Positions 3,340 through 18,145 of a stretch of 64,000 bases of DNA are shown one piece after another; position 1 is the first letter of the stretch; the number at the start of each line of letters is the position of its first letter. The position numbers and the translations under genes were made by a program. This DNA is from Janibacter corallicola NBRC 107790 (GTDB lineage: Bacteria; Actinomycetota; Actinomycetes; Actinomycetales; Dermatophilaceae): NCBI RefSeq assembly GCF_001570965.1, contig NZ_BCSR01000004.1, forward strand, positions 62,001-126,000, read 5' to 3'. The notes under the pieces are model-generated. The model was not told where the DNA came from, did not search any database, and worked only from the letters and a program-made list of their open reading frames with translations.

Positions 3340-4647
3340 GTGGACCGTGGCAGGACATGTGTCGGCGGGTTGCTGGACGACCTGGAGGAGGTCCATTCGG
3401 GACGACGGGGGGCGGGCGAGCTCGTCGCCGCCGCGCAGCAACGCATCGAGACGCACGACTCGCAGGTCCGGGCCTGGGCCCAGTTGTCGCAGAACGCGTC
3501 CCGTGACGCCGAGGCGGTGGACGCCCGGACCGACTCGCCACCGCTGAGGGGCGCCGTCGTCGGCGTCAAGGACATCATCGACGTCGCCGGCCTGCCGACC
3601 CGCTGCGGATCCCCCGCGACGACGTCGCCGGACCCCGCGGCGGCCAGCGCCACGATCGTCCGCCGGATCGAGGAGCTCGGTGCGGTGTCGCTCGGCAAGA
3701 CGGAGACGACCGAGTACGCGTACTTCGCTCCTGCACCGACCATCAACCCGGTCGCCCCGGACCGCACCCCCGGTGGGTCCTCCAGCGGCTCGGCTGCGGC
3801 CGTGGCCGCGGGGATGGTGCCGCTGGCCCTGGGGTCACAGACCGCGGGTTCGACGACGCGACCAGCGTCCTACTGCGGCGTGGTCGGGATGGTCCTCGCG
3901 CACGGCTCGGTCGACCTCGCAGGCATCGCCGGGCTGAGCCCCTCGCTGGACTCGCTGGGCCTGCTCACCCGCACCGTCTCCGACGTCGCCCACGTGCACC
4001 AGCTCCTGGTGGGGTCGGGAGCACCCGCCGACCCGTCCGGGCGCACCCCGGTCCACGTCTGGCGCGGCCACGACCTGGCGGTCGGGACGTCCATGTCCGC
4101 AGCGGTCGAGGCAGCGGCGGCGGGGCTCTCCGACGAGGGGTGTCCGGTCACCGAGCTGGACTGGGACGACCACGTCTTCACCCTCGTGCGGGACCACCCG
4201 ATCGTCATGGCCCACGAGGCCGCCGCATCCCGGCCCGACCTGCTCCAGCGCTCGTCGGACATCAGCCTCCAGCTCACCCAGCTGCTCGAGCAGGGACGCG
4301 GGATCGGCGAGGAGACCTACCAGCAGGCGCTCGTGCGCTGCGCCACGTCGCGGAGCCGCCTCGAGCAGTTCCTCGACGAGAACGGAGGAGTCATCATCGG
4401 GCCGGCTGCGCAGGGCCCGGCGCCCGAGAGGTCGACCGGCACCGGCTCCCCCGAGCTCAGTCGTCCCTGGCAGGCGATGGGCCTGCCCGTCGTCACCGTG
4501 CCGGGCGCCCGCACCGCCGAGGGACTGCCCCTTGGCATCCAGGTCGTCGGGATCCCCGGGCAGGAGTCCCGGATCTTCGCCGTCGCCCGGACACTCGAGC
4601 GCGTCCTGGCACAGACATCGACGACCACACCGTCGGGAAAGGCGTGA
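3340..4647 (+). CDS. iacH: Amidase signature enzyme (IacH-like)
   Basis: Amidase-signature hydrolase of 435 residues. The Ser-cisSer-Lys triad is visible as K77 (GVKDIIDVAG), S147 (TPGGSSSGSAAAVA) and S171 (QTAGSTTRPASYCG). The family hydrolyses carboxamides; in iac loci the IacH amidase is a conserved member, although its exact step is not settled and it is not always needed for growth on indole-3-acetate. The GTG start is supported by AAGGAGG eight bases upstream. It is followed after one base by the small iacI-like gene and then, with overlap, by a response regulator, so all three should be cotranscribed. Alternatives are indoleacetamide hydrolase or a general aryl-amidase. Confidence 0.83.
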   Translation: MDRGRTCVGGLLDDLEEVHSGRRGAGELVAAAQQRIETHDSQVRAWAQLSQNASRDAEAVDARTDSPPLRGAVVGVKDIIDVAGLPTRCGSPATTSPDPAAASATIVRRIEELGAVSLGKTETTEYAYFAPAPTINPVAPDRTPGGSSSGSAAAVAAGMVPLALGSQTAGSTTRPASYCGVVGMVLAHGSVDLAGIAGLSPSLDSLGLLTRTVSDVAHVHQLLVGSGAPADPSGRTPVHVWRGHDLAVGTSMSAAVEAAAAGLSDEGCPVTELDWDDHVFTLVRDHPIVMAHEAAASRPDLLQRSSDISLQLTQLLEQGRGIGEETYQQALVRCATSRSRLEQFLDENGGVIIGPAAQGPAPERSTGTGSPELSRPWQAMGLPVVTVPGARTAEGLPLGIQVVGIPGQESRIFAVARTLERVLAQTSTTTPSGKA

Positions 4648-4648
4648 C

Positions 4649-4921
4649 ATGGAGACCCTGATCGAGAACGACCACATGTTCCTCGTCTGCTACGAGGACA
4701 CCTTCGGCTACGGCTGGCGACACGTGGACCTCTTCGTCCACGACGAGCAGGGGCGCGAGGTCAACTGGGTCCACTGGGCTGTCGACGCCGACGGCCCGGA
4801 GGCGGCAGATGCCTCCATCGCCCGGGTGGAGCCCACCCTGCGCCGCACCACCGACTGGCAGCACGCCGTGAGCGCCGCTGGCATGAACTACTGGACGGCG
4901 GACGCCGCGTGGGCCACGTGA
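4649..4921 (+). CDS. iacI: Small IacI-like protein
   Basis: A 90-residue acidic protein, rich in aromatic residues and His (METLIENDHMFLVCYED, WRHVDLFVHDEQGREVNWVHW), with no signal peptide or membrane segment. Its size, its position directly behind the amidase and its company among iac homologues identify it as the IacI-type small protein of auxin-degradation loci; catalytic residues cannot be pointed out. The ATG lies one base after the amidase stop, indicating translational coupling, and its 3' end overlaps the response regulator start by 13 bases. The name is based mainly on context and general resemblance; a direct alignment with Pseudomonas putida 1290 IacI would decide it. Confidence 0.65.
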   Translation: METLIENDHMFLVCYEDTFGYGWRHVDLFVHDEQGREVNWVHWAVDADGPEAADASIARVEPTLRRTTDWQHAVSAAGMNYWTADAAWAT

Positions 4922-5568
4922 GCCCCGATGGGTCCGGCGACCCCGATCCCGATGACGTCCCCGACACCGTCGTGTACGTCATCGACGACGACGCGGCCGT
5001 GTGCGAGTCGGTCTCGTGGCTCCTGGGGAGCATCGACATCACGCCCGAGGTGCACCACCGGGCGGACACCTTCCTCGAGGCCTACGACGGGTCGCACCCG
5101 GCCTGCCTGATCCTCGACATGCGGATGCCGCGGATGAGCGGCGCCCGGCTGCAGACGGAGCTGAACGAGAGCGCCCCTCATGCGGCGATCATCTTCGTCT
5201 CCGCCCACGGGGACATCAAGATGTCGGTGACCGCGATGCAGGAGGGCGCGCTGCACTTCCTCGAGAAGCCCTACGAGCCCCAGCAGCTGCTCGACCTCGT
5301 GCAGGAGGGGATCGTCGTCGCGCGGGAGCAGTTCGTCGAGCACGCCACCCGCCTCGACGTCCAGCGGCGGATCGACTCCCTGACCCGGCGGGAGAAGGAG
5401 ATCCTGCAGCTGGTCATCGAGGGCCTGCCGAGCCAGAACATCGCTCGCCAGCTCGGGATGAGCGTGAAGACCGTCGACGTCCACCGGGCCCGCATCAAGG
5501 CCAAGACCGGCGCCGACAGCATCAACACCCTGGTCCGGGACGTCCTGCGGTACCACGCCACCGTCTGA
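4909..5568 (+). CDS. FixJ/StyR-type LuxR response regulator
   Basis: Two-component response regulator of 219 residues. The receiver domain spans about residues 20-140, with acidic pocket D26-D28, phosphoacceptor D70 (LILDMRMPRMSG), S98 and K120 (HFLEKP). The output domain is a LuxR/GerE helix-turn-helix (about 158-215, LTRREKEILQLVIEG and MSVKTVDVHRARIKAKTG). The receiver plus SAHGDIKMSV pattern is that of the FixJ/TodT/StyR group, which controls aromatic catabolism. The GTG start overlaps the end of iacI, so it is cotranscribed with iacH-iacI. Its probable partner is the PAS-containing kinase at the other end of the locus (start 10804), making a split FixL/FixJ-like pair around the catabolic operon (inference). 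Confidence 0.9.
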   Translation: MGHVSPDGSGDPDPDDVPDTVVYVIDDDAAVCESVSWLLGSIDITPEVHHRADTFLEAYDGSHPACLILDMRMPRMSGARLQTELNESAPHAAIIFVSAHGDIKMSVTAMQEGALHFLEKPYEPQQLLDLVQEGIVVAREQFVEHATRLDVQRRIDSLTRREKEILQLVIEGLPSQNIARQLGMSVKTVDVHRARIKAKTGADSINTLVRDVLRYHATV

Positions 5569-5585
5569 TGCCGGTGACGTGAGGC

Positions 5586-6536
5586 TCAGTAGTAGTCGAG
5601 CCGCAGCAGCGGCGAGGTGCACCGCGAGACGCAGACGGTGATCAGCTCACCGGACTCCTTCTCACTCTTGGTGAGCACGCTGTCGCGGTGGTCGACATCC
5701 CCTTCGAGGACCTCCATGATGCACGTGCCGCAGATTCCCTCCTGGCACGAGGTGTCGACGTCCGCGCCCCCTTCGCGCAGGACCTCGACGATGGTGCGGT
5801 CCGCGGGCACGTGGAAGGTCTCGCCCTCGAGCTCGACGTCGAAGGCGGAGTCCTCGCCGGTGGTCTCCTGCTCCGCAGGGCGGAAGTTCTCCTTGTGGAC
5901 GCGTTCCTCGTCCACGTACTCCAGGGCCACGTGCATGACCATGTCCATGAAGGGCTCGGGGCCACACATGTACAGGTGGGTGTCCTCCGGGAGGTCCGCG
6001 AGCGCCTCCCGCAGCAGGGCGTCGTGCTCCTCGAGTGGTGTCCCCAGGTGCGGGTGCAGCTTCTGCGGGCACTTCTCCTGCAGCAGTCCGAGGAAGGCGG
6101 CCTCCTCGGAGCTGCGCGCGAAGTAGTGCAGGTCGAAGTCGCCGTCGTGCACATCGAGGTACCTGGCGATGCTCAGCATCGGCGTGATCCCGATCCCGGC
6201 GGCCATGAGCACGTGGTGCTTGGCCTCGGGCACGATCTGCAGCAGGTTGCGCGGGCTGCTGATCTGGATGACGTCCCCGACCTGCAGTGCGTGCAGCGCC
6301 TCGGACCCACCGCGCGAGTGTGGCTCACACTTGACCGCGACCGTGTACGAGTCCGGGTCCTCGGGCCGGCTGCACAACGAGTACTGCCGCGTGATGGCCG
6401 TCGGGCCCACGACGTCGACGTGGGCCCCGGCCTCGTACACGCCGAGCGGCTCGCCGTCGACGCGCACGAGGCGCAGTGACTTCACCTGCGCCGACTCCTC
6501 GATGATCTCCGCGACGCGGACATCGATGAGACTCAT
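5586..6536 (-). CDS. iacF: Dioxygenase reductase, FMN/NAD/2Fe-2S (IacF-like)
   Basis: Phthalate-dioxygenase-reductase-type electron transfer protein of 316 residues. In order it has an FMN-binding beta barrel (RQYSLCSRPED), an NAD domain (LMAAGIGITPMLS; LYMCGPEPFMD) and a C-terminal plant-type [2Fe-2S] ferredoxin domain (DTSCQEGICGTCIMEV with the fourth Cys in VCVSRC). It passes electrons from NADH to the Rieske centre of the terminal oxygenase encoded just upstream in the same operon. It starts 27 bases after the SDR gene ends. In iac clusters this is IacF, reductase partner of IacC/IacD. VanB is a close family alternative, but there is no VanA-like enzyme here. Confidence 0.9.
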   Translation of the reverse strand: MSLIDVRVAEIIEESAQVKSLRLVRVDGEPLGVYEAGAHVDVVGPTAITRQYSLCSRPEDPDSYTVAVKCEPHSRGGSEALHALQVGDVIQISSPRNLLQIVPEAKHHVLMAAGIGITPMLSIARYLDVHDGDFDLHYFARSSEEAAFLGLLQEKCPQKLHPHLGTPLEEHDALLREALADLPEDTHLYMCGPEPFMDMVMHVALEYVDEERVHKENFRPAEQETTGEDSAFDVELEGETFHVPADRTIVEVLREGGADVDTSCQEGICGTCIMEVLEGDVDHRDSVLTKSEKESGELITVCVSRCTSPLLRLDYY

Positions 6537-6563
6537 GCCTATTCCCTCCCGAGGGTGCTGCGC

Positions 6564-7325
6564 TCAGCGCAGGTACAGACCACCGTTGATGTCCCAGCAG
6601 GCGCCGGTGACGAAGCCCGCGTTCTCCTGCGCGAACAACGACACCGTGTCCGCGATGAACGAGGCGTCACCGAGGCGGCCGACGGGGATCGAGGACACCA
6701 CGGCGGCCAGCTTGTCCTCGGGGACCGTGTCGTGCACGACCGGCAGGTCGTGCGGGCCCGGCGAGATCGCGTTGACCGTGACCCCGGAGGCGGCCAGCTG
6801 CCGCGCGAAGACCTTCGTCAGGGTGATGATCCCGCCCTTGGAGGTCGCGTAGTGGGCGCCGGTTGCCGTCCCACCGTTCTCCCCCGCGAGCGAGGCCATG
6901 TTGATGATGCGTCCGTGGCCCTGCTCTGCCATGGCGACGCCGAAGACCTGGCACCCGAAGAAGACGCTGCCGCTGTTGACGGACAGCACTCCGAGGAACT
7001 CCTCGGCGTCGAGGGTCATCGTGTCCGCGGCCCGGGTGAGGGCGGCGTTGTTGACGAGCACGGTCGGCTCGCCCCACGCGTCCCGCAGGTGCTCCAGTGC
7101 CGCCTCGAAGTCCGGCTTTCGGGAGACGTCGAGCCTGCGGAAGTCACTGGTGGTGCCGTCGGGCGAGAGGTCCTCGGCCAGCCGGTGGCCGGCCGCCTCG
7201 TCGACGTCGGTGACGAGCACGCGGAAGCCGTCGCGGTGCAGGCGCCGGCTGATCGCCTCACCCATGCCGCCCGCGGCGCCGGTCACGACGGCGACGGGCG
7301 CCCCCTTCGACACTGACTCGGTCAT
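6564..7325 (-). CDS. iacE: Short-chain dehydrogenase/reductase (IacE-like)
   Basis: Classical SDR of 253 residues: nucleotide-binding TGAAGGMG (residues 15-22), NNAA at 92-95, and catalytic S145, Y159 and K163 (GAHYATSKGG). In iac pathways IacE is an SDR reported to act on the hydroxylated indole-3-acetate intermediate on the way to dioxindole-3-acetate. I prefer the ATG giving MTESVSKG because AAGGGG lies five bases upstream; a GTG six bases earlier overlaps that ribosome site. It sits eleven bases after the dioxygenase small subunit in the iacABCDEF operon. Substrate is inferred from context; as a bare SDR it could also be a dihydrodiol dehydrogenase. Confidence 0.85.
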   Translation of the reverse strand: MTESVSKGAPVAVVTGAAGGMGEAISRRLHRDGFRVLVTDVDEAAGHRLAEDLSPDGTTSDFRRLDVSRKPDFEAALEHLRDAWGEPTVLVNNAALTRAADTMTLDAEEFLGVLSVNSGSVFFGCQVFGVAMAEQGHGRIINMASLAGENGGTATGAHYATSKGGIITLTKVFARQLAASGVTVNAISPGPHDLPVVHDTVPEDKLAAVVSSIPVGRLGDASFIADTVSLFAQENAGFVTGACWDINGGLYLR

Positions 7326-7335
7326 GGCCACCCCT

Positions 7336-7827
7336 TCAGAGCAGGAATCCCGCGGCGGGCACGTGCTCGTCGCTGTTGAGCAGGCGGACGACCTTCTCCG
7401 CGATCCGGTCGCCGGACTCGTCCAGCACGATGCGGTGGGTCACCGTCGCACCGAGCGTGAGGGTGTTGCCCCGCTTGTACGCCACGAGGACCTGGACCGA
7501 GCGAAGGGAGACGTGCGAGTCGTCGACGTCCGTCACCGTGAAGCGGGAGACGGTCCGGACAGTTCGGGCGGCCGCGACCGCCGACTGCGAGTAGCCCCCG
7601 ACCATGCGCTCCACGCGCATCCGGCGCATCCGCGCGTCGTCGTAGACCATGTTGAGCGAGGACGCGTGGTCATCACCCTCCTGGTCGATCGGGATGACGT
7701 ACATCGCGTCGTCGGTGTACAGCTTCTCCCACGTCTCGTACTGCTTGTCGTCGAGCAGCTCGGCCTCGTGCCAGACCAGCTCGATCGCCCGGGCGACCCG
7801 GGTGTCCGTCAGCACCGCCTCAGTCAT
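7336..7827 (-). CDS. iacD: Aromatic ring-hydroxylating dioxygenase small subunit (IacD-like)
   Basis: Beta subunit of a Rieske non-heme iron oxygenase, 163 residues, with the cone-shaped NTF2/SnoaL-like fold pattern of this family (LDDKQYETWEKLYTDDAMYV, then RMVGGYSQSAVAAARTVR). Beta subunits have a structural role in the alpha3beta3 hexamer. Its ATG lies inside the 3' end of the large-subunit gene (8-base overlap), so the two subunits are translationally coupled. Length is normal for the family. Assignment as IacD follows from pairing with IacC and the gene order. Confidence 0.9.
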   Translation of the reverse strand: MTEAVLTDTRVARAIELVWHEAELLDDKQYETWEKLYTDDAMYVIPIDQEGDDHASSLNMVYDDARMRRMRVERMVGGYSQSAVAAARTVRTVSRFTVTDVDDSHVSLRSVQVLVAYKRGNTLTLGATVTHRIVLDESGDRIAEKVVRLLNSDEHVPAAGFLL

Positions 7828-9094
7828 CGCTCATCATCTTCTTCCACATCGCGTAGGCACCGCGCATGCCCGTCTCGTCGGTGACCTGGGACGTGCGCTG
7901 CCCGTCCACGTCGGTCTCCCTCTCGAGCCCGCGGTTGAGCAGGATCGGCATGTCGGGGTCGCCGGCGGCACCCATCTGGACCCGCTCCCACCCCTCCGAG
8001 TCGTCCGGGCTCCCGAAACCGAAGGGCCCCTGGAAGTGCTCGTGGATGCGCAGCCGCTCCTGGTTGACCACCTCGGGGCCCCCGTCCATTCCGAGGGACA
8101 TGTGCCAGATCTCGGTCTCGTCGACGGAGATCGGAACGAGCACCCGCAGGAAGGAGATCGACATCGAGACATTGGGAAAGGTGTTGAGGTTGAACCCCGC
8201 ACCGTGGATCGAGCGGACGAAGCGCCGGATCTGCTCCTCGGAGTACTCCCCGCTCTCCCGCAGCTCGGCGACGACGTGGTCGAAGCGCGGCTGCAGCGGG
8301 GCGCCGTCGTCGACGTCCAGGTCCGAGTTGCCCGGCGCCATGATCGCGACCGCGTGACCGTTGCCCAGGTCGTGGGTCACGGCCTCCGGGTCGTTCATGA
8401 AGGACATCATGTCCGCGGTCTCGGCGTCGACGGAGGCCATCCACGACTTGTGCACCATCGGGAAGTGGTATCCGTCGGTGGTGTTCTCCAGCTGGATCTT
8501 CCAGTTGCCCCTGAAGCGGAACTTGTGGATCCCGGTGACCTTCGTCGGGTAACCGTTGCTCTGCTTGAAGAAGCGCTCCATCCACGGCTTCGCGTCACCG
8601 AGGAAGTCCTCGAGCGGTTCGGCGTCCTCGTTGAAGGTCGCGAAGATCATGCCCAGGTAGCTCTCCGTGCGCAGCCGGTGGAGCGGGAAGTCGCTCTTCT
8701 CGACGACACCCTCGTACCCCTCGGGGTAGGGGATCCCGCGCAGTCGGCCGTCCAGGGCGTAGGACCAGTTGTGGTATGGGCAGGTGAACCCGTTGGCCTT
8801 GCCCTTGGGCAGGTCGCACACCGTGGAGCCGCGGTGACGACACCGGTTGACCAGGGTGTGGAACTGGTGCTTGCGATCGCGAGAGACGATGACCGGCTGC
8901 TGCCCGACCCGGGTGGTCTTGAAGGATCCCTTCTCCGGCAGCTCGCTCTCGTGCGCGACCCACACCCAGGTGCGGTAGAAGATCTTCTCCATCTCCTCCG
9001 CGAAGATCTCCGGGTCCGTGTACGCACGACCGGCGATGCGGTCGCCCTCCAGCAGGCTCGCGTAGTCGCTCCTGGCGGTCTCGGCGATGGTCAT
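7820..9094 (-). CDS. iacC: Aromatic ring-hydroxylating dioxygenase large subunit (IacC-like)
   Basis: Catalytic alpha subunit, 424 residues. The Rieske [2Fe-2S] ligands are C85, H87, C105 and H108 (NRCRHRGSTVC and GFTCPYHNWSYALDG). The mononuclear iron site is D207-G-Y-H210 and H215 (ENTTDGYHFPMVHKSW), with D207 also serving as the electron bridge expected in this family. In the iac pathway IacC/IacD oxygenates the dioxindole-3-acetate-type intermediate, leading to catechol. Partners are the beta subunit (overlapping gene) and the IacF-like reductase two genes downstream. All key residues are present, so the enzyme should be active. No ring-cleavage dioxygenase for catechol lies in this window. 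Confidence 0.92.
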   Translation of the reverse strand: MTIAETARSDYASLLEGDRIAGRAYTDPEIFAEEMEKIFYRTWVWVAHESELPEKGSFKTTRVGQQPVIVSRDRKHQFHTLVNRCRHRGSTVCDLPKGKANGFTCPYHNWSYALDGRLRGIPYPEGYEGVVEKSDFPLHRLRTESYLGMIFATFNEDAEPLEDFLGDAKPWMERFFKQSNGYPTKVTGIHKFRFRGNWKIQLENTTDGYHFPMVHKSWMASVDAETADMMSFMNDPEAVTHDLGNGHAVAIMAPGNSDLDVDDGAPLQPRFDHVVAELRESGEYSEEQIRRFVRSIHGAGFNLNTFPNVSMSISFLRVLVPISVDETEIWHMSLGMDGGPEVVNQERLRIHEHFQGPFGFGSPDDSEGWERVQMGAAGDPDMPILLNRGLERETDVDGQRTSQVTDETGMRGAYAMWKKMMSDD

Positions 9095-9124
9095 GACTTC
9101 ACACTCCTTCTGTACGGCACCGGC

Positions 9125-9481
9125 TCAGACGTCGTCTCGGATCGTGAGGGCACGGCCCATGCGGGCCTCGATCTTGGCGTAACGCCACAGCGCGTGCTCC
9201 TCGTCGACCATCGTCGTGCGGAAGAGGTTGCAGGCGGCCTTGACCGTCTCCTGGTCGCGGACGTCGGCGAGGACGTAGCAGGTCCAGGGCCAGCCGTCGC
9301 TCGGGCCGACGACGTGGGCGTCGTCGTCCATGTTCCCGAGGACGGTGACGCCGTCCATGTCCTCCATGTCGCGCAGCATCCCGGCGAAGGCGGTCCAGAC
9401 GGTGCCGATCTGCGCCTTGGGCAGGTCGAAGAAGTTCTGGTTGATGCCCATGCAGAAGAGCACGCGCAGCGGGTCAGCCAT
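9125..9481 (-). CDS. iacB: Small conserved protein, IacB-like
   Basis: A 118-residue soluble protein of unknown biochemistry (MADPLRVLFCMGINQNFFDL; WPWTCYVLADVRDQETVKA), between the IacA-like oxygenase and the dioxygenase genes. Size and position are those of IacB in auxin-degradation clusters. The alternating beta/alpha pattern and DDDAHVVGP region suggest a ferredoxin-like (dimeric alpha-beta barrel) fold, as in small monooxygenases or muconolactone isomerases, but this is impression only. The intergenic gaps of about 30 bases on both sides place it firmly in the iacA-F operon. Confidence 0.7.
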   Translation of the reverse strand: MADPLRVLFCMGINQNFFDLPKAQIGTVWTAFAGMLRDMEDMDGVTVLGNMDDDAHVVGPSDGWPWTCYVLADVRDQETVKAACNLFRTTMVDEEHALWRYAKIEARMGRALTIRDDV

Positions 9482-9513
9482 GGTCAGTCCTTTCGTGCGA
9501 TCACGGTCAGTGG

Positions 9514-10668
9514 TCAGGGGAAGCTCGGGATGCCGGCCTCGGCGCCGAGGAGCAGGGCGCCGGAGGCCTCGTAGGTCCCGCCCTGGAGCATCGCGTGCTG
9601 CGGCGGCACGAGGGCGTCGCGCAGGTAGCGCTGCAACGGGTGCTTGTTGTAGATCGCCCCGGTCCCCGCGAGGTCGAAGGCGGCCAGCACGACCGCGCGG
9701 CTCTCGTGGGCCGCGTGGGACGTCGCGAGGCGGAGCAGCACCTTCTGCTCATCGCTCACCGCGTCGCCGGCGAGCACGGTCTGCCAGGCCTCGTCGGTCG
9801 TCTCGTAGAACCAGGCACGCGCCGAGCGCAGTCGGGCCTCGGCCCTGGCCAGACCGAGCTGGAAGGTGCCGGTCGTGCCCCGGCGGTTCCCGCCGGTGAT
9901 GCTCGTGCGCTGGCTGCCGACCTCACGGACGTAGTCGAGGGCGCCGCGGGCGGCACCGACGCCGGTGACCGCGAGCACCTGCGCCGCGTAGGCCAGGGCG
10001 GGGTACCGGTAGAGGGGCTCGTCCACGTTGGACTCACCGCCGCGGATGAAGGTGCGCTCGTGCGGGACGAAGACACCGTCGAGCTTGATGTCGTTCGAGC
10101 CCGTGGCACGCATCCCGGAGACGTCCCAGTTCTCGATGATCTCGGCCTCGTCCGGGAAGATCACCGCGTTGCGCGGCCGCGGATCGCTGGGGTCCTTCAG
10201 ACCGACCCCCAGGATGTCCGCGCCGGCGGAACCGCTGGCGAACTGCCACCGACCGGTGCAGCGGAAGCCCCCTTCGACGACCTCGGCCTCGAGCATGGGG
10301 AAGAGCGCACCGGCGTAGACGACGTCGGGGCCGTCGGCGTAGAGCTCGGCCTGGACCTCGAGCGGCAGCGCCGTGAGGTACGTGAGCGAGGACCCGAAGC
10401 TCGCGACCCACCCGGTGGCCGGATCGACCGCCGAGATCTGCTCGATGCGGTCCAGGAAGTCGGTCGGCGCCATCGGCTCGCCGCCGAATGTGCTCGGCGT
10501 CGATGCCCGGTAGATCCCCGCCCGCTTCAGGAGACGGACGTAGTCACGGGGAACATGACCCTGGTCGGTGAACTCGTCCCTGCGGTCCCGCAGGACGTCG
10601 AGTGCTTCCTGAAAGGCCTTCTCTCGCGCCGGGCCAGCGGGCTCGGCGAGCGCGTACTGTGCGGCCAC
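9514..10668 (-). CDS. iacA: Flavin-dependent indole-3-acetate monooxygenase (IacA-like)
   Basis: Protein of 384 residues with the acyl-CoA dehydrogenase/HpaB-HsaA fold: N-terminal helical domain, central barrel (GRWQFASGSAGADILGVG), C-terminal four-helix bundle (RSARAWFYETTDEAWQ; HPLQRYLRDALVP). This is the class D two-component flavin monooxygenase family to which IacA belongs. IacA performs the first hydroxylation of indole-3-acetate and also oxidises indole to indigo-forming products. It needs FADH2 or FMNH2, presumably from the fused flavin reductase at 1972-3168. It is the first gene of the minus-strand operon, divergent from the sensor kinase. A true acyl-CoA dehydrogenase is less likely given the neighbours. 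Confidence 0.86.
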   Translation of the reverse strand: MAAQYALAEPAGPAREKAFQEALDVLRDRRDEFTDQGHVPRDYVRLLKRAGIYRASTPSTFGGEPMAPTDFLDRIEQISAVDPATGWVASFGSSLTYLTALPLEVQAELYADGPDVVYAGALFPMLEAEVVEGGFRCTGRWQFASGSAGADILGVGLKDPSDPRPRNAVIFPDEAEIIENWDVSGMRATGSNDIKLDGVFVPHERTFIRGGESNVDEPLYRYPALAYAAQVLAVTGVGAARGALDYVREVGSQRTSITGGNRRGTTGTFQLGLARAEARLRSARAWFYETTDEAWQTVLAGDAVSDEQKVLLRLATSHAAHESRAVVLAAFDLAGTGAIYNKHPLQRYLRDALVPPQHAMLQGGTYEASGALLLGAEAGIPSFP

Positions 10669-10803
10669 CAGCGTCTCCGTTTCGTGTGCAACTTTGAACG
10701 AACACGCTCAACGTAGGTTCGGGCCGAACTCCGCCGCCATTGGTAGTTCCTCGGTTCCCGGTAAGGGAAACACCTAGGGACGTGGTGGCCCATCGGTGCA
10801 AGC
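10669..10803. promoter_or_regulatory. Divergent control region of iacA and the sensor kinase
   Basis: 135 bases separate the two starts. A 5-bp inverted repeat, TTCCC-GGTAA-GGGAA, occupies 10755-10769 and is the best visible operator candidate for the FixJ-like regulator of this locus. A related TTTCCCGAAAAC stretch lies upstream of the TRAP operon near 15969-15981. The AT-richer stretch at about 10680-10725 (CAACTTTGAACGAACACGCT) probably contains the iacA promoter. Assignment of sites is inference. Confidence 0.4.
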
Positions 10804-12318
10804 ATGTCGCCGACGAGTGAGGTGGCAACGGTGTTTCCGACCGGCAAGGACTTCGAGCAGATGACGCTGCACACCTCCACTGGTGTGCTCATCCACGAGG
10901 CGGTCTCGAAGAACATCCTGTGGGCCAACCCGTCCGCCTGCCGGATGTTCGGCTTCTCGCTCGAGGAGCTCAAGCCGCTCAAGGCCCACCACATGAGCGG
11001 CCAGGAGAAGCAGTACCGCCGGGCGCTGGGGGTCGCCTGGCTCGAGGACGCCGTCGTCCACGGCCGCAGTCGCCGGCAGTGGATGTACCGGCGACGTGAC
11101 GGGCAGGAGTTCCTCACCGACGCGGTCGCCGTGCGGATCGAGCTCGAGGACGGCCCGGCCGTCATGGTCCAGTTCCGCGAGATCGCCGAGGAGGTCGAGG
11201 TCCGCGAGGAGCTCCAGCGGGCCACGAGTTACCTGCAGCGCATCCTCACCTATGCCTCCGCGGGTGTCATCCTGCTGGACGAGGAGTGCCGCATCGTCGA
11301 CACCTCGCCGATGGCCGCCCGGCTCTTCGGGGCGCCCAAGGAGGCCGTGCTCGGCTGCCCCCTCGACGACGTCGTCACCGTGTCCCCGCCGCTGGACGAC
11401 TCCTCAGTCATCGCCGCGCTCACCGAGCACTCCCGCACGACCGAGCTGCGGTTGCGGCCCCGGGCCGGCGAGGAGCCGCCCTGGCTCTCGGGGCAGCTCG
11501 AGACGATTGCCCACGACGGCATCGAGTCCCGGGTCCTCGTGGTCCGGGACATCTCCGCCAAGGTCAGGATGGAGCAGGAGGCGGCCCGTCGGGACGCCGA
11601 GCTGCAGCGGGTGAGCCGGGAGAACGCCATGGGGGACATGGCGATGACGATCGCCCACGAGCTCGGGCAGCCCCTCGCCGCGAGCAACAACTTCCTCAAG
11701 GGCGCGGTCGCACGGATGGACGCACCGGAGCCGCAGGACGCCGCGGTCCGCTACGGGATCGACCACGCGCTGCTGCAGCTGACGCGCGCGTCCGAGATCG
11801 TCGCGAGCGTCAAGCGCTACGTGCAGCGGACCGAGACCCCCTCCGCGGCGGTGGACCTGACCGACATCGTCCGCGAGGGGCTGTACTTCGCCCAGATCTC
11901 CGCGACCGAGCAGAGCGTCGTCCTCGACGCCGACCTCGCCACGTCCCCGCTGCAGGTCACTGGCGAGCGCGTCCTCCTGGGCCAGGTCCTGCTCAATCTG
12001 CTGACCAACGCCATCCGGGAGGTCACGCCGCTCTCCGCCGACCGGCGGCGCATCCGCATTTTCACCCGTGAAGAGGACGGATACGCCTGCTGCAGCGTCG
12101 TGGACGAAGGGAGGGGGATGCCCACCGAGCCGGACGGCACCGCACCGAGTGGTTTCGTCCGCAGCTCCGGCGGTGCAGGCATCGGCCTGATGCTGTGCGA
12201 GCGGATCATCGAGCGTCATCGAGGGGAGATCGAGTTCGCGCCCAACTACCCCTTCGGGCCCGACCGGGAAGCCCGGGGGACGCGCGCCACGATCCGGATC
12301 CCGCTCGACCGCTCCTGA
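10804..12318 (+). CDS. PAS-domain sensor histidine kinase (FixL/StyS-like)
   Basis: Cytoplasmic sensor kinase, 504 residues, with no membrane segments. Two PAS domains (about residues 18-120, ILWANPSACRMFGFSLEEL, and about 140-250, GVILLDEECRIVDTSPMAA) precede a HisKA dimerisation helix with phosphoacceptor H285 (TIAHELGQPLAASNNF) and an ATPase domain with N-box LLNLLTNAIREV, G1 VVDEGRGMP and G2 GGAGIGLMLCERI. The HELGQPL signature is that of FixL-group kinases, whose partners are FixJ-type regulators, and one such regulator is encoded at 4909-5568. The soluble PAS domains suggest sensing of a cytoplasmic ligand such as indole-3-acetate or redox state (inference). The ATG used has only a weak ribosome site. 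Confidence 0.9.
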   Translation: MSPTSEVATVFPTGKDFEQMTLHTSTGVLIHEAVSKNILWANPSACRMFGFSLEELKPLKAHHMSGQEKQYRRALGVAWLEDAVVHGRSRRQWMYRRRDGQEFLTDAVAVRIELEDGPAVMVQFREIAEEVEVREELQRATSYLQRILTYASAGVILLDEECRIVDTSPMAARLFGAPKEAVLGCPLDDVVTVSPPLDDSSVIAALTEHSRTTELRLRPRAGEEPPWLSGQLETIAHDGIESRVLVVRDISAKVRMEQEAARRDAELQRVSRENAMGDMAMTIAHELGQPLAASNNFLKGAVARMDAPEPQDAAVRYGIDHALLQLTRASEIVASVKRYVQRTETPSAAVDLTDIVREGLYFAQISATEQSVVLDADLATSPLQVTGERVLLGQVLLNLLTNAIREVTPLSADRRRIRIFTREEDGYACCSVVDEGRGMPTEPDGTAPSGFVRSSGGAGIGLMLCERIIERHRGEIEFAPNYPFGPDREARGTRATIRIPLDRS

Positions 12319-12368
12319 CGGCGCGGGGAGCGCGCCGTCCGTCCTACGCTACGGTCCCGCCCTCGACC

Positions 12369-12935
12369 TCAGTCCTGCATGAGGACCGAGGTGGCGGGCA
12401 TGTCGTGGACGACCCCCTTCGGCAGCTCGGCGATGAGCACGTTCTCGGTCCGGGTGCGGGTGATCAGCCACCGATCGCCCTCGCGCCGGAAGGCGTTGTT
12501 CAGCCGGCTGGAGCGCACCCGGGTGGTGCCGTCCGCGAAGACCCAGGGCTGCATGTGGATCCACTGCCCCTCCGCGGTCTCCTCGTCGACATGGATCTGC
12601 TCGGCCGTCAGGTAGTGCGCGTTGAGCAGCAGCGCCGGGTCCTGCTTCTCACCCCAGAACCGCTCGAAGTGGGCCCGGATCGCCGAGGCTCCCTCGGCGC
12701 GGCCGAACTGGCCCTCGTAGTACTCGCCGACGCCCTCCCAGACCGCCTCGGGGGCGTACAGCTCCATGATGCGGTCGATCCGCTCGGAGTCGTCCGCGAT
12801 GCCCGGCTCGGGGCACGGCGTATCGCACAGGAACATGTACCGGGCCTGCACCCGCCGGATCTCGGCTTCGGCCTCGAGCACACCGATCCGGCGCTCGAGT
12901 GCGCCCACCCTGGCGGTCAGCTCGTCATCTCTCAT
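12369..12935 (-). CDS. SnoaL/NTF2-like protein
   Basis: Protein of 188 residues: a short N-terminal coiled helix (DDELTARVGALERRIGVLE) followed by an NTF2/SnoaL-like cone fold (RVQARYMFLCDT, RIMELYAPEAVWEG, GRAEGASAIRAHFERFWG). Such domains act as polyketide cyclases, steroid isomerases, lyases or dioxygenase beta subunits. Here it is last in a tight operon, 13 bases after the TRAP large permease, so it presumably acts on the imported compound or its first metabolite. No catalytic residues can be assigned with confidence. The HYLTAEQIHV region resembles the SnoaL_4-type subfamily found with aromatic catabolism. Confidence 0.78.
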   Translation of the reverse strand: MRDDELTARVGALERRIGVLEAEAEIRRVQARYMFLCDTPCPEPGIADDSERIDRIMELYAPEAVWEGVGEYYEGQFGRAEGASAIRAHFERFWGEKQDPALLLNAHYLTAEQIHVDEETAEGQWIHMQPWVFADGTTRVRSSRLNNAFRREGDRWLITRTRTENVLIAELPKGVVHDMPATSVLMQD

Positions 12936-12948
12936 GCGGCATCTCCTT

Positions 12949-14271
12949 TCACGAGCCCATGAAGCCGGGCAGGAACAGCACGACGTCCGGGAAGACGGCC
13001 AGGATCGTGATGACGACCAGGTCGGAGACGATCCAGGGCAGCACCGACCGGTAGAGCAGCGACATCTTCAGGTGCGGCGCCACTCCCTTCATGACGAACA
13101 GGCTCATCCCGAACGGCGGTGTCGTGTTGGCGATCTGCAGGTTGATCAGCAGCAGGACGCTGAACCACACCGGGTCCCACCCGAAGGCGGTGACGATGGG
13201 CATGAACAGCGGTGCGGTCACGAGCATGATCGAGACCTGGTCGATGAAGGCGCCGAGGACGAGCAGGACGACCATGATCACCAGGAGCATCAGGAAGGTG
13301 CCCGACACGGTGCCGGTCACGGCGCTCACGAGACCACTCGTGGCACCCGAGAAGCTCATCAGCTGCGCGTAGAGGGTCGACCCGAGGACGATCGCGAAGA
13401 TCATCGTGGTCGTGCGGACCGTACCGACGGCGGAGTCGTAGAGCCCCTGCCAGGTCAGCCTGCGGGTCACGACCCCGAGGAGCAACGCGGCCACTGCGCC
13501 GATGGCCGCGGCCTCGGTGGGTGTGGCGACCCCGAGGAAGATCGTGCCGAGCACCGCCACCACGATGACGCCGGGGCCGAGGGCCCGGCGCACCCCGGCG
13601 CCCAGCGCCGTGGCGAGACTGCGCTTGGGTGAGTCCTCGGCCTGGCCGTCGGCCCCGCGCCGGCTCCACACCCAGATGATGCACACGTAACCGACGGTCA
13701 TCATCAGGCCGGGGACGATCCCGGCGATGAGCAAGGGGCCGATCGGCACCTGGGCGACCCCACCCCAGAGGATCGCGAGCGCGCTCGGCGGGAGGACCAT
13801 CGCCAGGCCGCCCGCCGCCAGGATCGACCCGACGGCCAGCCGCTGGTCGTAGCCGCGCCGCTCCATGTCCGGCAGGAGGGTGCGCCCGAAGAGCGCGGTG
13901 TTGGCAAGTGTGGATCCCGAGAGCAGGCCGAATGCGGCACCCCCACCCACCGCGACCATGGCAAGCCGACCAGGCATGCGCCGCATGGCGATGGAGAGCT
14001 CGTCCAGCGCCTCCTGGGCCACCTGACTTCGGAACATGAGCTCACCCATGAGGATGAACAGCGGGATCGCGGTGAACGTGAAGGTCGTGACGCTGCCGAG
14101 GATGCTCAGGCCGATCTGGTTCAGGGCGGCGTTGACGTCGCCGTACACCACGAGCGCCCCCAACGCACCGGTCCCCAACATGGCGAAGGCCACCGGGACC
14201 CGCAGGATCAGCAGGATCAGCAGGACGGCCAGGAAGGAGCCGAGGAAGGCGTACCAGGACATGTCGAGCAT
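12949..14271 (-). CDS. dctM: TRAP transporter large permease (DctM)
   Basis: Integral membrane protein of 440 residues with about 12 hydrophobic segments, the M subunit of a tripartite ATP-independent periplasmic transporter. It drives solute uptake with a sodium gradient. Diagnostic DctM motifs include PLFILMGELMFRSQVAQEALDE, GGAAFGLLSGSTLANTALFG and LPPSALAILWGG (short stretches of longer conserved blocks). Its ATG overlaps the stop of the small permease (ATGA), the normal arrangement. The neighbouring P and Q genes are complete. Substrate cannot be read from the M subunit. Confidence 0.94.
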   Translation of the reverse strand: MLDMSWYAFLGSFLAVLLILLILRVPVAFAMLGTGALGALVVYGDVNAALNQIGLSILGSVTTFTFTAIPLFILMGELMFRSQVAQEALDELSIAMRRMPGRLAMVAVGGGAAFGLLSGSTLANTALFGRTLLPDMERRGYDQRLAVGSILAAGGLAMVLPPSALAILWGGVAQVPIGPLLIAGIVPGLMMTVGYVCIIWVWSRRGADGQAEDSPKRSLATALGAGVRRALGPGVIVVAVLGTIFLGVATPTEAAAIGAVAALLLGVVTRRLTWQGLYDSAVGTVRTTTMIFAIVLGSTLYAQLMSFSGATSGLVSAVTGTVSGTFLMLLVIMVVLLVLGAFIDQVSIMLVTAPLFMPIVTAFGWDPVWFSVLLLINLQIANTTPPFGMSLFVMKGVAPHLKMSLLYRSVLPWIVSDLVVITILAVFPDVVLFLPGFMGS

Positions 14272-14867
14272 CAGTCATTGCCCTTTCGGACGACACGGAC
14301 GTCGACGACGACCTTGCGGATGAGGACCACGAGGACGAGCAGGAAGCAGATGACGGCCACCCCGCTGACCCACTGGCGCGGGATGTCGAGCTCCCCGCTC
14401 AGGGTCGTGCCGGTCATCAGGTCCGTGCGGAAGACCTCCGACAGGGCGTAGATGACCATCACCGTCACGAGGATCTGCACGGCGTCGACGAAGAGCTCGA
14501 GGCGGCCCACCCGCTTCTCGCCCAAGGCGGAGTCGATGATCTCGAGGCGCACGTGCTCATCGCGGTAGGACAGCCCCGCCGCCCCGAGGACGACGACCAC
14601 GAGCATCGACAGCGAGGCCAGCTCGATGAGCCCGAGGACTCCGTGGCCGGTGTAGCGCAGGATCACACCCACGGCCACACCGACCATCAGGATGAGGACG
14701 ACGGCGGCACCGACAGCCTCGGGGATCTTCGCCGGCAGCCAGTCGGGATTGGCCAGTGCCTCCTGCTCCGCCTCCGAGTGGTGCAGGTGTGACGCCGCGA
14801 GGACGTCCTCCTCCCCCGCCTCGGGTCCGTCGTCGCGATCGGGGCCGGTGCGTTCAGAGTCGGCCAT
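14271..14867 (-). CDS. dctQ: TRAP transporter small permease (DctQ)
   Basis: Small TRAP membrane subunit of 198 residues. An unusually long, acidic cytoplasmic N-terminus (about 50 residues, ADSERTGPDRDDGPEAGEED) precedes four hydrophobic helices (VVLILMVGVAVGVILRYTG; LASLSMLVVVVLGAAGLSYR). The YRDEHVRLEIID motif after the second helix is typical of DctQ. It is coupled to DctM by a 4-base overlap and starts three bases after the binding-protein stop. Confidence 0.92.
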   Translation of the reverse strand: MADSERTGPDRDDGPEAGEEDVLAASHLHHSEAEQEALANPDWLPAKIPEAVGAAVVLILMVGVAVGVILRYTGHGVLGLIELASLSMLVVVVLGAAGLSYRDEHVRLEIIDSALGEKRVGRLELFVDAVQILVTVMVIYALSEVFRTDLMTGTTLSGELDIPRQWVSGVAVICFLLVLVVLIRKVVVDVRVVRKGND

Positions 14868-14870
14868 GGT

Positions 14871-15929
14871 TCACTTCTTGGGCTTGATGCTCGTCCCCCC
14901 GGGGACGACGCTGCTCAGGTCCTTGGCGTACTGCGCCTGGAACTTCTCGCGAATCTTCTCGGCCTCGGGACCCTTGGAGGAGATGCGCTTCCAGTCCAGC
15001 GCGTCCCATGCGTCGACATAGGCGATGGACAGGATCTTCTCCTCGTCCTTGCCCTTGAAGGTGATGGGCTCCACGCCTGCCTTCTGCCACTCCGCGGTCT
15101 CCTTGGCCGCCACGTCACCGAAGTGGTCGAAGATCTTCGGCTCGAGCTCGACCATCGTGTCGGTGATGGCCTGCTGGGTCTCCTCGTCGAGGGACTTCCA
15201 CTTCGCGTCGTTGATGACCGTGTTGGCCAGCGAGTCGTAGAAGCGCGGCTCGACGTAGTACTTGGCCACCTTGGGGATGCCCAGGTCCTTGGCCCCCACG
15301 GACGTCCAGGCGGATCCGTCGATGACCCCGCGCTCGAGGGCCGTGTAGATCTCCCCGCCCGGCAGGTCCACCGGCGTGCCACCGAGAGACTCGACCATGT
15401 TGGAGGTCGCCGACGAGGTTCGGATCGAGAGCCCCTTGAAGCTGGGGTTGGTCAGCTCCTTCTTCGTGAAGAGCACCTGCGGGATGCCCGAGATGCTGTG
15501 CCCGACGTAGTGCAGGCCGGCGTCCTCGTGGACCTGTTCCCACAGGTCGGAGATGCCCTCCTTGCGCTCCTCCTCCGGGGTGAAGGGGGAGAAGCGCTGC
15601 AGCTCGAGGGCGGGAACCTGCTGGACGTAGTAGTCCCCCGGCAGGGCCGCCCCGTCGATGGCGCCGGACTGGACCCCCTCGATCATCTGGTTGGGCTCCA
15701 TCGTCTCCGGACCGCCCTTGTACTTGATCGTGATCCAGGGCGCCTTCTTCTCCAGCTCGTCGGCGAACCTGAAGAATCCTGCGTTGAGCGGGTGGTCCTT
15801 CGCGAAGGACGTGACGAAGGACAACTCGACGTTCTGGTGACCGTTCGTGGAGCCGCCGGCTGATTCACCACACGCGGCGGCGGTGGTGGCGAGGGCGGCA
15901 ATACTGGTTACCGCGAGGATCCTCTTCAT
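14871..15929 (-). CDS. dctP: TRAP substrate-binding lipoprotein (DctP)
   Basis: Extracytoplasmic solute receptor, 352 residues, with a lipoprotein signal (MKRILAVTSIAALATTAAAC; lipid-modified Cys at residue 20). The DctP fold is supported by LSFVTSFAKDHPLNAGFFRF, the conserved ligand region DLPGGEIYTALERGVIDGSAWT and FKGLSIRTSS, where Arg normally pairs with the substrate carboxylate. Ligands of this family are therefore usually carboxylic acids. Lying next to an auxin-degradation locus, it could import indole-3-acetate or a related aromatic acid, but this is inference. The ATG has AAAGGAG six bases upstream; an upstream in-frame extension lacks a signal and was rejected. Confidence 0.93.
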   Translation of the reverse strand: MKRILAVTSIAALATTAAACGESAGGSTNGHQNVELSFVTSFAKDHPLNAGFFRFADELEKKAPWITIKYKGGPETMEPNQMIEGVQSGAIDGAALPGDYYVQQVPALELQRFSPFTPEEERKEGISDLWEQVHEDAGLHYVGHSISGIPQVLFTKKELTNPSFKGLSIRTSSATSNMVESLGGTPVDLPGGEIYTALERGVIDGSAWTSVGAKDLGIPKVAKYYVEPRFYDSLANTVINDAKWKSLDEETQQAITDTMVELEPKIFDHFGDVAAKETAEWQKAGVEPITFKGKDEEKILSIAYVDAWDALDWKRISSKGPEAEKIREKFQAQYAKDLSSVVPGGTSIKPKK

Positions 15930-16064
15930 GAGATACTCCTTTGTTCCCATTTCGTGCAGGAGGGGGCGTTTCCCGAAAACCCCGGCGTGCATGGATTCAG
16001 GGCACCGACTTGTGACTTTCGGGAGATTATCGACTGCCGAGTTTCCTCGGTATCAGGGATTCCT
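15930..16064 (-). promoter_or_regulatory. Upstream region of the TRAP operon
   Basis: 135 bases between the hydroxyacyl-CoA-dehydrogenase-like gene and dctP, with reduced GC. It contains a CCGAG-TTTC-CTCGG inverted repeat (about 16038-16051) and a GTTTCCCGAAAAC element (about 15969-15981) resembling the TTCCCG repeat upstream of iacA. It probably holds a separate promoter for dctPQM. Elements are tentative. Confidence 0.35.
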
Positions 16065-17066
16065 TTAGCGCTGCGCGGCCCGCGTCGCGATGCCGTCCGG
16101 CATCGCGGGACCGAGGAGCTCCTGCGCGCGCAGCAGGCGGATGAGGACGTCCGCCCGGTAGGTCTCGCGCTCCGCGGCCGGGTACTCGTGGAAGCCGCGT
16201 CCGTCCTGCAGTCCGTTGCGGCCGTCCAGGTTGCGCTCGACGATGTCCGGCACCGCGTACCGGTACTCGTCGACGTGCTCGGCGAGGTAACGGCCGGCGT
16301 GGTGCAGGGTGTCGTTGCCGCCGAAGTCGACGAACTCGAGCACGCCCATGCTCGCGAAGCGGAACCCGAGCCCGAAGCGGGTCGCGGTGTCGATGTCCTC
16401 AGGGGTCGCCACGCCTTCGTCCACGAGCCGGGCCGCCTCGTTCATGATGAGGGCCTGCAGCCGGGGGACGATGTAGCCCGGGGTGGGCCCGCAGACGACA
16501 GGGACCTTGCCGATGGCCTCCAGGTGCGCGCGGACGTCGGCGACGACCGCGGGGTCCGTGCCGGGGTGGACACTCAGCTCGACGAGCGGCACGACGAAGG
16601 CCGGGTTGAGCCAGTGGGCGTTGAGGAAGCGCCCTGGCGTCTGCAGCATCCCGGACAGCTCCGTGACGAGCATGGCCGAGGTCGTTGACCCGACCGGCGT
16701 GTGCGGGGTGGTGTGCTCGCTGATCAGGGCGAAGGCGGCCCGCTTGGCCTCCTCGGTCTCGGGGACGGCCTCGTAGACGAGTCCGGCCCGCGAGAGCACC
16801 TCGGGCGCCTGCTCCGGTCGGGCGACGGTGAGGAGGGAGGCGCAGTGCTCGAGGCACTCCGGGGCGAGGGCACCCAGATCCACGAGCCGGGCGAGGTCAC
16901 CCCGCACGTCGGCGGCGACGGCCGCGGCGAAGGCGGTCGCGCCGTCGGCGTCGCGCTCCTTGATGTCCAGGAGGGTCACCGGGACCTCGCCGAGCACGTG
17001 CGCGATGGCGATCCCCCGGCCCATGCGTCCGCCCCCGACGGAGACGACAGGCCCGAGGGTGCTCAT
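16065..17066 (-). CDS. 3-hydroxyacyl-CoA dehydrogenase-family enzyme
   Basis: NAD-dependent dehydrogenase of 333 residues with the single-copy HCDH architecture: N-terminal Rossmann fold (VVSVGGGRMGRGIAIAHVLG), NAD domain end at GSTTSAML, NAHWLNPAFVVPLVEL, and a C-terminal helical domain (GYIVPRLQALIMNEAARLVDEGVA, truncated here). The AHWLNP and PGYIVPRL patterns are closer to the L-carnitine/lambda-crystallin/gulonate dehydrogenase branch than to fatty-acid FadB, so the substrate may be a small hydroxy acid rather than an acyl-CoA. Its start overlaps the stop of the opine-dehydrogenase-like gene by four bases, so the two are cotranslated. Substrate unknown. Confidence 0.83.
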   Translation of the reverse strand: MSTLGPVVSVGGGRMGRGIAIAHVLGEVPVTLLDIKERDADGATAFAAAVAADVRGDLARLVDLGALAPECLEHCASLLTVARPEQAPEVLSRAGLVYEAVPETEEAKRAAFALISEHTTPHTPVGSTTSAMLVTELSGMLQTPGRFLNAHWLNPAFVVPLVELSVHPGTDPAVVADVRAHLEAIGKVPVVCGPTPGYIVPRLQALIMNEAARLVDEGVATPEDIDTATRFGLGFRFASMGVLEFVDFGGNDTLHHAGRYLAEHVDEYRYAVPDIVERNLDGRNGLQDGRGFHEYPAAERETYRADVLIRLLRAQELLGPAMPDGIATRAAQR

Positions 17067-18145
17067 CGCCGGCCCTCGGAGAGCAGGGAGGTCAGCTGAT
17101 CGCGCGTGAGCCCTGCCAGGCCGAGGGATCCCAGCGTCCGCCCGCTCTGACGCAGGTCCTCGCCGACAACCGCGCCGGCGAGCGCCAGCAGCCCGGACGC
17201 GACGGGGACGTCAACCCCTGCCCACGCGGCGACCGAGACGAGGAAGGCCAGGCCGAGTGCGGTGTCCTCGCGCATGTAACGGTGCTCGTGCAGGTCGATC
17301 TTCTCGCGCCAGTCGCCGCTGTCGACGAGCTTGGCGTGCGAAGAGGTGTCGCCGTACATCCACTGGTCGTTCTCGTAGTGGTCCGCCAGTGGGAAGTGCG
17401 GGGTGCCGTAGCCGAGCGCCTCACGAACCCGGATCCGCTCGTGGTCCAGGGCCGTCGTGACGGCCCGGATCGACGGCTGCGTGCCCTCGTTGTGGATGTC
17501 CCAGGCAGGGAAGTGCTCCAGCGGGCCGGCATTCATCAGGATCAGCGGTGGGTGGATGATCGGCCCGGCGTTCATCAGTGCCCCGGACAGCGCGTCCTCG
17601 CAGCGCTCGACCGAGGGGAAGGCCTTGCCGATGACCTCCAGCGCGCGGTCGGTGTCGGCCGCGGGGTAGACGCCAGTGGGCAGCCGGGTCGCACGCGCCG
17701 AGATGTTGATGACCGTGTCGCCGTGCTTGCGCGCCAGCCAGGGCAGGGTGCCGGTCTCGGCCCACGCCACCGTGGCAGTGTTCCCCGACTCGCGCACGAT
17801 CTCGCTCATGACCCAGGAGCCGAAGGTGCCCGGGGGAAGGAAGACGACCTGGCCGTCGACCAGGTGGGGAGCCATCTCGGCGGCGATGTCCCGCTGCGCC
17901 ACCGCCGGCGAGGGGATCAGGACGAGATCGGCACCGGCGAGCGCCTCGGCGATGTCGGTGCAGGCTCCGGCGATCGTGACCTCGCGGCTCCCGTCCTCGT
18001 CCTTGAGGGTGAGGACGGGCCTCTCCAGCAGTGCGCCGAACTGCTCGGCCGACCGGCGCCACAGCCGTACCTCATGGCCCTGCTCACCCAAGTCCGCAGC
18101 GGCCGCGTAGCAGCCGTGCCCACCACCCAGCACTGCAATTTTCAC
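17063..18145 (-). CDS. Opine (octopine/nopaline) dehydrogenase-family protein
   Basis: About 360 residues: N-terminal Rossmann fold (KIAVLGGGHGCYAAAADLG), a central linker (FLPPGTFGSWVMSEI) and a C-terminal helical domain with the NAD/NADP octopine/nopaline dehydrogenase features (NAGPIIHPPLILMNAG; HYENDQWMYG). The family oxidises or forms N-(carboxyalkyl) amino acids and related secondary amines. The conserved His in PIIHPP corresponds to the family's catalytic His. I chose the GTG that directly begins the Rossmann strand; a TTG 36 bases upstream is possible, and neither has a clear ribosome site, so the mRNA may be leaderless. It is first in a run leading to a hydroxy-acid dehydrogenase and a TRAP transporter. 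Confidence 0.8.
   Translation of the reverse strand: MKIAVLGGGHGCYAAAADLGEQGHEVRLWRRSAEQFGALLERPVLTLKDEDGSREVTIAGACTDIAEALAGADLVLIPSPAVAQRDIAAEMAPHLVDGQVVFLPPGTFGSWVMSEIVRESGNTATVAWAETGTLPWLARKHGDTVINISARATRLPTGVYPAADTDRALEVIGKAFPSVERCEDALSGALMNAGPIIHPPLILMNAGPLEHFPAWDIHNEGTQPSIRAVTTALDHERIRVREALGYGTPHFPLADHYENDQWMYGDTSSHAKLVDSGDWREKIDLHEHRYMREDTALGLAFLVSVAAWAGVDVPVASGLLALAGAVVGEDLRQSGRTLGSLGLAGLTRDQLTSLLSEGRR

Follow-up and report, generated by a model that had tools for sequence, protein, structure and literature searches.

The closest described relatives of the locus reported here are two kinds of gene cluster for degradation of the auxin indole-3-acetic acid (IAA). The iac cluster (iacABCDEFGHI), known from Pseudomonas putida 1290, Paraburkholderia phytofirmans and Caballeronia glathei, encodes a pathway that ends in catechol, whereas the iad locus of Variovorax CL14 makes anthranilate by other enzymes (PMC9613470, PMC10374108, PMC12633357). 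In a published survey, the share of genomes with IAA operons ranged from 0.65% in marine metagenome-assembled genomes (MAGs) to 12% in isolates from plant roots (PMC11630574). We analyzed a stretch of 64,000 nucleotides from Janibacter corallicola NBRC 107790 (contig NZ_BCSR01000004.1), referred to here as the window, in which iac genes are accompanied by an operon of six genes (12369-18145; all positions are those of the window). In order of transcription, these genes encode an octopine-dehydrogenase-family enzyme (ODH), a 3-hydroxyacyl-CoA-dehydrogenase-family enzyme (HCDH), the solute-binding protein (DctP), small permease (DctQ) and large permease (DctM) of a TRAP transporter, and a protein with the SnoaL fold. 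What is new here is a known IAA locus that carries an undescribed accessory module.

Counterparts of all the genes iacA to iacI are present in the window, including the core genes iacA, iacB, iacC, iacD and iacE and the marker iacI; the pathway of the window is iac, not iad. The window differs from the described clusters in that iacI is detached and closes the operon with ODH, HCDH and the TRAP transporter, all of which fall outside the published iac gene lists that we consulted for comparison. We identify the SnoaL gene as iacI by sequence similarity. Its predicted product is 62% identical to IacI of Bradyrhizobium (L111) and 68% identical to that of Paracoccus (L114), with 30-36% identity to the IacI proteins of Acinetobacter and Pseudomonas (L048 and L065); IacI has a SnoaL fold (PMC7225977). 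Because the gene is iacI, the operon belongs to the iac locus instead of simply adjoining it. A first-pass annotation of this DNA had grouped a SnoaL-like protein with the two dehydrogenases in the operon and did not recognize it as IacI; the membership stands, and a role as enzymatic partner of the dehydrogenases is rejected in view of the identity with IacI. The same annotation had called the gene set uncharacterized, and we found no publication that describes the ODH-HCDH module. Our literature search, whose coverage leaves out most subscription papers and preprints, returned no link between an opine-dehydrogenase-family gene and IAA catabolism.

The six genes had been described as collinear, with four of the five junctions tight, and both descriptions hold. 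All six lie on the minus strand, with a 4-base overlap between ODH and HCDH, a 3-base gap between DctP and DctQ, a 1-base overlap between DctQ and DctM, and a 13-base gap between DctM and iacI. The remaining gap, between HCDH and DctP, is 72 bases, or 135 bases if DctP starts at the ATG at 15929. This ATG is the likely start, preferred over 15992, and is preceded by AAAGGAG. The start of ODH is most likely the GTG at 18145, where its homologues begin.

The conserved core of the module is the ODH-HCDH pair. In all 34 homologous loci, which represent three phyla, HCDH directly follows ODH on the same strand, and the evolutionary distances of the two proteins are correlated (r 0.79, Mantel p 0.001). 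The pair is served by interchangeable transporters, the TRAP importer being one of them. This importer adjoins the pair in the window and in three other loci (L043, L044 and L047). In Alcaligenes, Pusillimonas, Azoarcus and their relatives, its place is taken by an NMT1-type ABC system accompanied by a MarR regulator, an NMT1-type ABC system is also found beside the pair in two Paracoccus, and an MFS transporter is found in Burkholderia, Acinetobacter, Bradyrhizobium and sphingomonads. A fixed ODH-HCDH-TRAP unit is thus ruled out. Of the set proposed by the first-pass annotation, the two dehydrogenases are conserved together and the TRAP importer specifically is not, being replaced by ABC or MFS systems; clustering of the dehydrogenases with some transporter, whose absence had been named as evidence against the proposal, is conserved. 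The MarR protein beside the ABC version matches the IAA-binding MarR_73 (7kfo) at 57 bits, a weak indication, since another MarR protein, 3cjn, scores 63 bits. Sphingomonad loci add a pyrroloquinoline quinone-dependent alcohol dehydrogenase, a GlcD-like FAD hydroxyacid oxidase, a cytochrome c, a phenylacetaldehyde-dehydrogenase-like enzyme and an amidase, enzymes that would be suited to the formation of arylacetates from precursors.

The pair set comprises 34 genomes or records, 28 of which are whole genomes. An iacC gene (at least 53% identity) is found in 13 of the 34 and an iad-type oxygenase (at least 64% identity) in 15; one has both, so that 27 have either. Among whole genomes, the count is 23 of 28, or 24 if we include G707, which has neither oxygenase gene but has iacH, iacA, iacB and iacE. 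Co-occurrence with iac or iad is therefore nested, with 4 of the 28 genomes as exceptions. The association is also seen in broader samples, for which p-values are usable only as rankings and overstate the evidence, because the samples overlap in part and related genomes are not independent. For example, a sample of 200 genomes from the family of Alcaligenes includes 31 with ODH and 63 with the iad oxygenase, and iad is present in 30 of the 31 genomes with ODH versus 33 of the 169 without it (Fisher p 5e-17). The remaining ODH genome, G886, has iacA, iacB, iacE and iacG near ODH. In a sphingomonad sample, iacC occurs in four of five genomes with ODH versus 4 of 195 without it (p 5e-6). What is informative is this nesting: the pair is seldom found without genes for IAA degradation, and many IAA degraders do not have it. 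It had been suggested that conservation of the gene set be sought in the absence of iac genes; the pair does occur without iac, but iad is then usually present. The link to auxin that the first-pass annotation drew from position is thus supported by iacI in the operon and by the distribution of the pair among iac and iad genomes. Two loci, L102 (from G886) and L117 (from G707), have iacA, iacB and iacE, with no iac-type iacC found in the stretch examined; L102 also has an AMP ligase, and both represent mixed iac/iad arrangements.

The pair is also physically close to these pathways. The distance from ODH to iac or iad genes is below 20 kb both in the window (8 kb) and in 15 other loci; for the iac genomes tested, fewer than one such case was expected. 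Distances to iac genes are 7.5 kb in Burkholderia cenocepacia, 7.4 kb in B. arboris, 12.5 kb in B. multivorans, 4.7 kb in Acinetobacter (on a plasmid), 5.8 kb in Pseudomonas, 13 kb in Bradyrhizobium, 6.4 kb in Paracoccus ravus, 15.5 kb in P. litorisediminis, 18 kb in Novosphingobium, 16 kb in Sphingomonas formosensis, 6.2 kb in G1073, 17.8 kb in G1077 and 4.2 kb (to iacA) in G886. The module directly follows the iad genes in Paracoccus saliphilus (L044; 6.5 kb) and precedes them in Tianweitania (L076; 2.1 kb). In Alcaligenes, ODH and the IAA-degradation genes are about 0.67 Mb apart, and linkage therefore cannot be the whole reason for the co-occurrence.

Both dehydrogenases have intact catalytic residues. 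ODH belongs to the Octopine_DH/CENDH family by domain score, by fold and by its His-Asp dyad with a neighboring Arg. Its AlphaFold model (mean pLDDT 88.9) is most similar to the N-(1-D-carboxylethyl)-L-norvaline dehydrogenase of Arthrobacter 1C (CENDH, 1bg6; TM-scores 0.83/0.89), then to octopine dehydrogenases and, more weakly, to ketopantoate reductases and D-mandelate dehydrogenase. Residues H210, R301, E305 and D306 are invariant among 23 aligned sequences and correspond to H202, R292, E296 and D297 of CENDH, which we take to be its catalytic residues. Despite the common fold and matching active sites, ODH is only about 28% identical to CENDH, and differs from it in always being paired with HCDH in the loci that we have seen.

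The predicted model of HCDH (pLDDT 91.3) and its sequence have among their best matches the AF2017 3-hydroxyacyl-CoA dehydrogenase (1zej), FHMPC dehydrogenase (4om8) and lambda-crystallin/L-gulonate dehydrogenase (3ado), the last two being HCDH-family enzymes that do not need CoA. HCDH has an NPxxxPLVE-like motif in common with this group, but is only 25-28% identical to its members. The Ser-His-Glu-Asn active site is present and invariant (S130, H151, E163 and N209). HCDH scores 397.7 bits against the NCBIfam equivalog model PRK08269, below the cut-off of 427, and therefore the name 3-hydroxybutyryl-CoA dehydrogenase is not warranted. We also considered a role in CoA-dependent beta-oxidation and rejected it as the self-evident reading of HCDH, given that most loci have no adjoining ligase, acyl-CoA dehydrogenase or thiolase; L066 and L068 do carry some of these genes beside the pair.

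The transporter has the P, Q and M subunits together, and Arg191 of DctP is invariant among aligned binding proteins. DctP has an apparent lipoprotein signal, here on a TRAP binding protein from an actinobacterium. Its best solved relative is a distant one (4mnc/4mni, 103 bits), which we take to be a Polaromonas protein with benzoylformate as ligand. A literature search on TRAP proteins and benzoylformate returned nothing relevant.

On this basis, we propose that the operon is an accessory feeder module that delivers IAA from another compound to IAA degradation, a role that we consider reasonably probable; that the ODH-HCDH module has some dedicated role in IAA catabolism is quite likely. In brief, the TRAP system would import an indolic (aryl) carboxylate, ODH and HCDH would use NAD to oxidize it, giving either IAA or a precursor of IAA, and the iac enzymes, including IacI from the same operon, would degrade IAA to catechol. 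The module is portable, in that the pair elsewhere has an NMT1-type ABC or MFS transporter and accompanies either iac or iad. What we infer is the position of the module upstream of IAA, its function in import and its substrate. Because iac and iad have in common IAA and at most its first oxidation products, the module most likely takes up an indolic carboxylate and converts it towards IAA; and its own transporter, its use with either pathway and its absence from many degraders together make a feeder the best explanation.

Candidate substrates can be named only tentatively, and the N-substituted amino acid or auxin conjugate put forward in the first-pass annotation is likewise no more than a candidate. 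An aryl-2-hydroxy or 2-keto acid such as indole-3-lactate, a possible but doubtful choice, fits a carboxylate importer, the fold of a dehydrogenase of 2-substituted acids and the sphingomonad gene set, but there is no obvious decarboxylating step. No indolepyruvate decarboxylase was recognized among three of the genome's thiamine pyrophosphate enzymes that were examined, and the route from lactate through pyruvate to IAA is therefore weakened, unless another enzyme or spontaneous chemistry intervenes. An N-substituted tryptophan processed by opine-type chemistry is rather unlikely; it fits the opine dehydrogenase family and leaves HCDH unexplained. Oxidation of indole-3-acetaldehyde by HCDH, in the manner of FHMPC dehydrogenase, was also considered.

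The lack of a recognized decarboxylase is one of several points that weigh against the feeder role. The window DctP is just 26-30% identical to TRAP binding proteins of three other ODH-HCDH loci. Three MAGs carry the pair with no iac or iad genes detected, and a distant pair (42% ODH) with a TRAP DctP occurs in Desulfobacterales with no IAA pathway detected, so that the ancestral substrate may have been broader than indoles. Such cases would be expected if the target of the module were some other compound from plants or soil, with no relation to IAA, and the module accompanied IAA degradation only because the same rhizosphere bacteria need both, and the HCDH and ODH families are indeed broad. 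This ecological explanation does not account for the excess of close linkage to iac and iad or for iacI being the last gene of the window operon, and we consider it quite improbable. The Desulfobacterales locus, in a MAG (L075:9986-13242), has ODH, HCDH and DctP in a row and looks like an older, possibly anaerobic, version of the module; its binding protein is 17% identical to the window DctP.

It is likewise unlikely, in our view, that ODH and HCDH work within the breakdown of IAA, on an intermediate or by-product common to iac and iad, such as a hydroxylated oxindole formed early on, its stereoisomer or a carboxylate fragment that is set free, with the transporter importing IAA itself or recovering a leaked intermediate. 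This arrangement would explain the nested co-occurrence with both pathways equally well, and would suit the position of iacI. However, the pair is missing from 33 of the 63 sampled iad genomes, about half, and reconstituted steps of both pathways reached their intermediates without the ODH-HCDH module (PMC7225977, PMC12633357). Also, a separate aromatic-acid-type ABC transporter adjoins the module in Alcaligenes, Azospirillum and a MAG, and therefore the module's own transporter is suggested to serve something else. Finally, the constant company of two dehydrogenases of different families, together with ketopantoate reductase and D-mandelate dehydrogenase among the structural neighbors of ODH, might reflect a racemizing pair: the two enzymes would oxidize and re-reduce opposite enantiomers of a single aryl hydroxy acid, making both forms usable. 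Such a role is very unlikely, because ODH is closest in both sequence and structure to an opine dehydrogenase, CENDH, and because 3-hydroxy groups are the usual target of the HCDH family.

The locus as a whole (1972-18145) looks like a mosaic of an actinobacterial iac core with ODH and IacI of proteobacterial affinity, which suggests transfer between phyla. Among the loci compared, iacA to iacF of the window are closest to Rhodococcus and Streptomyces plasmid iac loci (IacC 74% and 68% identical), within 13 kb of which no ODH is found, and IacI is nearest to Paracoccus and Bradyrhizobium. No close relative of ODH was found in 297 genomes of the host order (only proteins at about 30% identity), and the best other match in 396 genomes of the host phylum is 44% identical. 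Homologues at 57-79% identity occur in Pseudomonadota, among other IAA degraders, and in the ODH tree the window protein falls within an Alcaligenaceae group, with Alcaligenes as its sister (support 99/96). ODH proteins at about 60% identity are encoded in L066 and L068, records with actinobacterial titles. Base composition of the window locus gives no sign of import. The loci L066 (titled Kitasatospora arboriphila) and L068 (titled Williamsia muralis) are nearly identical over 21 kb, with ODH branches of about 0.01, under titles from two actinobacterial families, which reflects either recent transfer or contamination or mislabeling of one assembly.

Coordinates of the operon and of the other genes discussed are listed in Table 1; each of the six operon proteins scores well above its Pfam cut-off. 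The kinase and the LuxR-type regulator probably form a local two-component system, as has been reported at Pseudomonas iac loci (PMC11630574). Beyond the operon, the window also encodes a probable secreted nuclease that joins DUF6359 and Endonuclease I domains (18823-20007).

Table 1. Genes of the ODH-HCDH operon and of the surrounding iac locus, with supporting matches (Pfam scores in bits versus cut-off)
Feature	Position	Strand	Support
ODH, octopine/CENDH-family dehydrogenase, 360 aa, operon gene 1	17063..18145	-	PF02317 (Octopine_DH), 89.8 vs 30
HCDH, 3-hydroxyacyl-CoA-dehydrogenase-family enzyme (PRK08269-like)	16065..17066	-	PF02737/PF00725; 3HCDH_N, 119 vs 22
DctP, TRAP solute-binding lipoprotein	14871..15929 (open reading frame open to 15992)	-	PF03480 (DctP), 104 vs 23.4
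DctQ, TRAP small permease	14271..14867	-	PF04290 (DctQ), 59.5 vs 28.3
DctM, TRAP large permease	12949..14271	-	PF06808 (DctM), 274 vs 23.8; TIGR00786 over cut-off
iacI, SnoaL-fold protein of the iac pathway, last operon gene	12369..12935	-	PF13577 (SnoaL_4), 60 vs 24
PAS-domain sensor histidine kinase, between iacA and the operon	10804..12318	+	PF02518, PF13426
iacA, flavin-dependent IAA monooxygenase	9514..10668	-	PF08028; 56% to a Rhodococcus iac locus
iacB	9125..9481	-	62% to IacB of L065; 66-68% to actinobacterial iac loci
iacC, Rieske oxygenase alpha subunit	7820..9094	-	PF00355/PF00848; 74% to Rhodococcus sp. USK13
iacD, oxygenase beta subunit	7336..7827	-	PF00866
iacE, short-chain dehydrogenase	6564..7331	-	PF13561; 51-58% to IacE of other loci
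iacF, oxygenase reductase	5586..6536	-	PF00111; 58% to Rhodococcus
LuxR-type response regulator	4909..5568	+	PF00072, PF00196
iacH-like amidase	3340..4647	+	PF01425; 46% to amidase of Streptomyces iac locus L119
iacG, flavin reductase	1972..3168	-	PF01613; homologous to reductase of L048 iac cluster

The known gene sets of auxin degraders, bacteria that shape root growth, start from free IAA. The module suggests that these organisms also consume another auxin-related compound. In its fullest form, an idea that we advance with less confidence than the feeder role itself, a portable two-dehydrogenase pathway present in Actinomycetota and Pseudomonadota might make IAA from an imported indolic compound, and so drain an extracellular store or precursor pool of auxin into either IAA pathway. 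If the substrate were identified, auxin turnover in the rhizosphere would gain an input that is now missing, and an orphan branch of the opine dehydrogenases would acquire a function.

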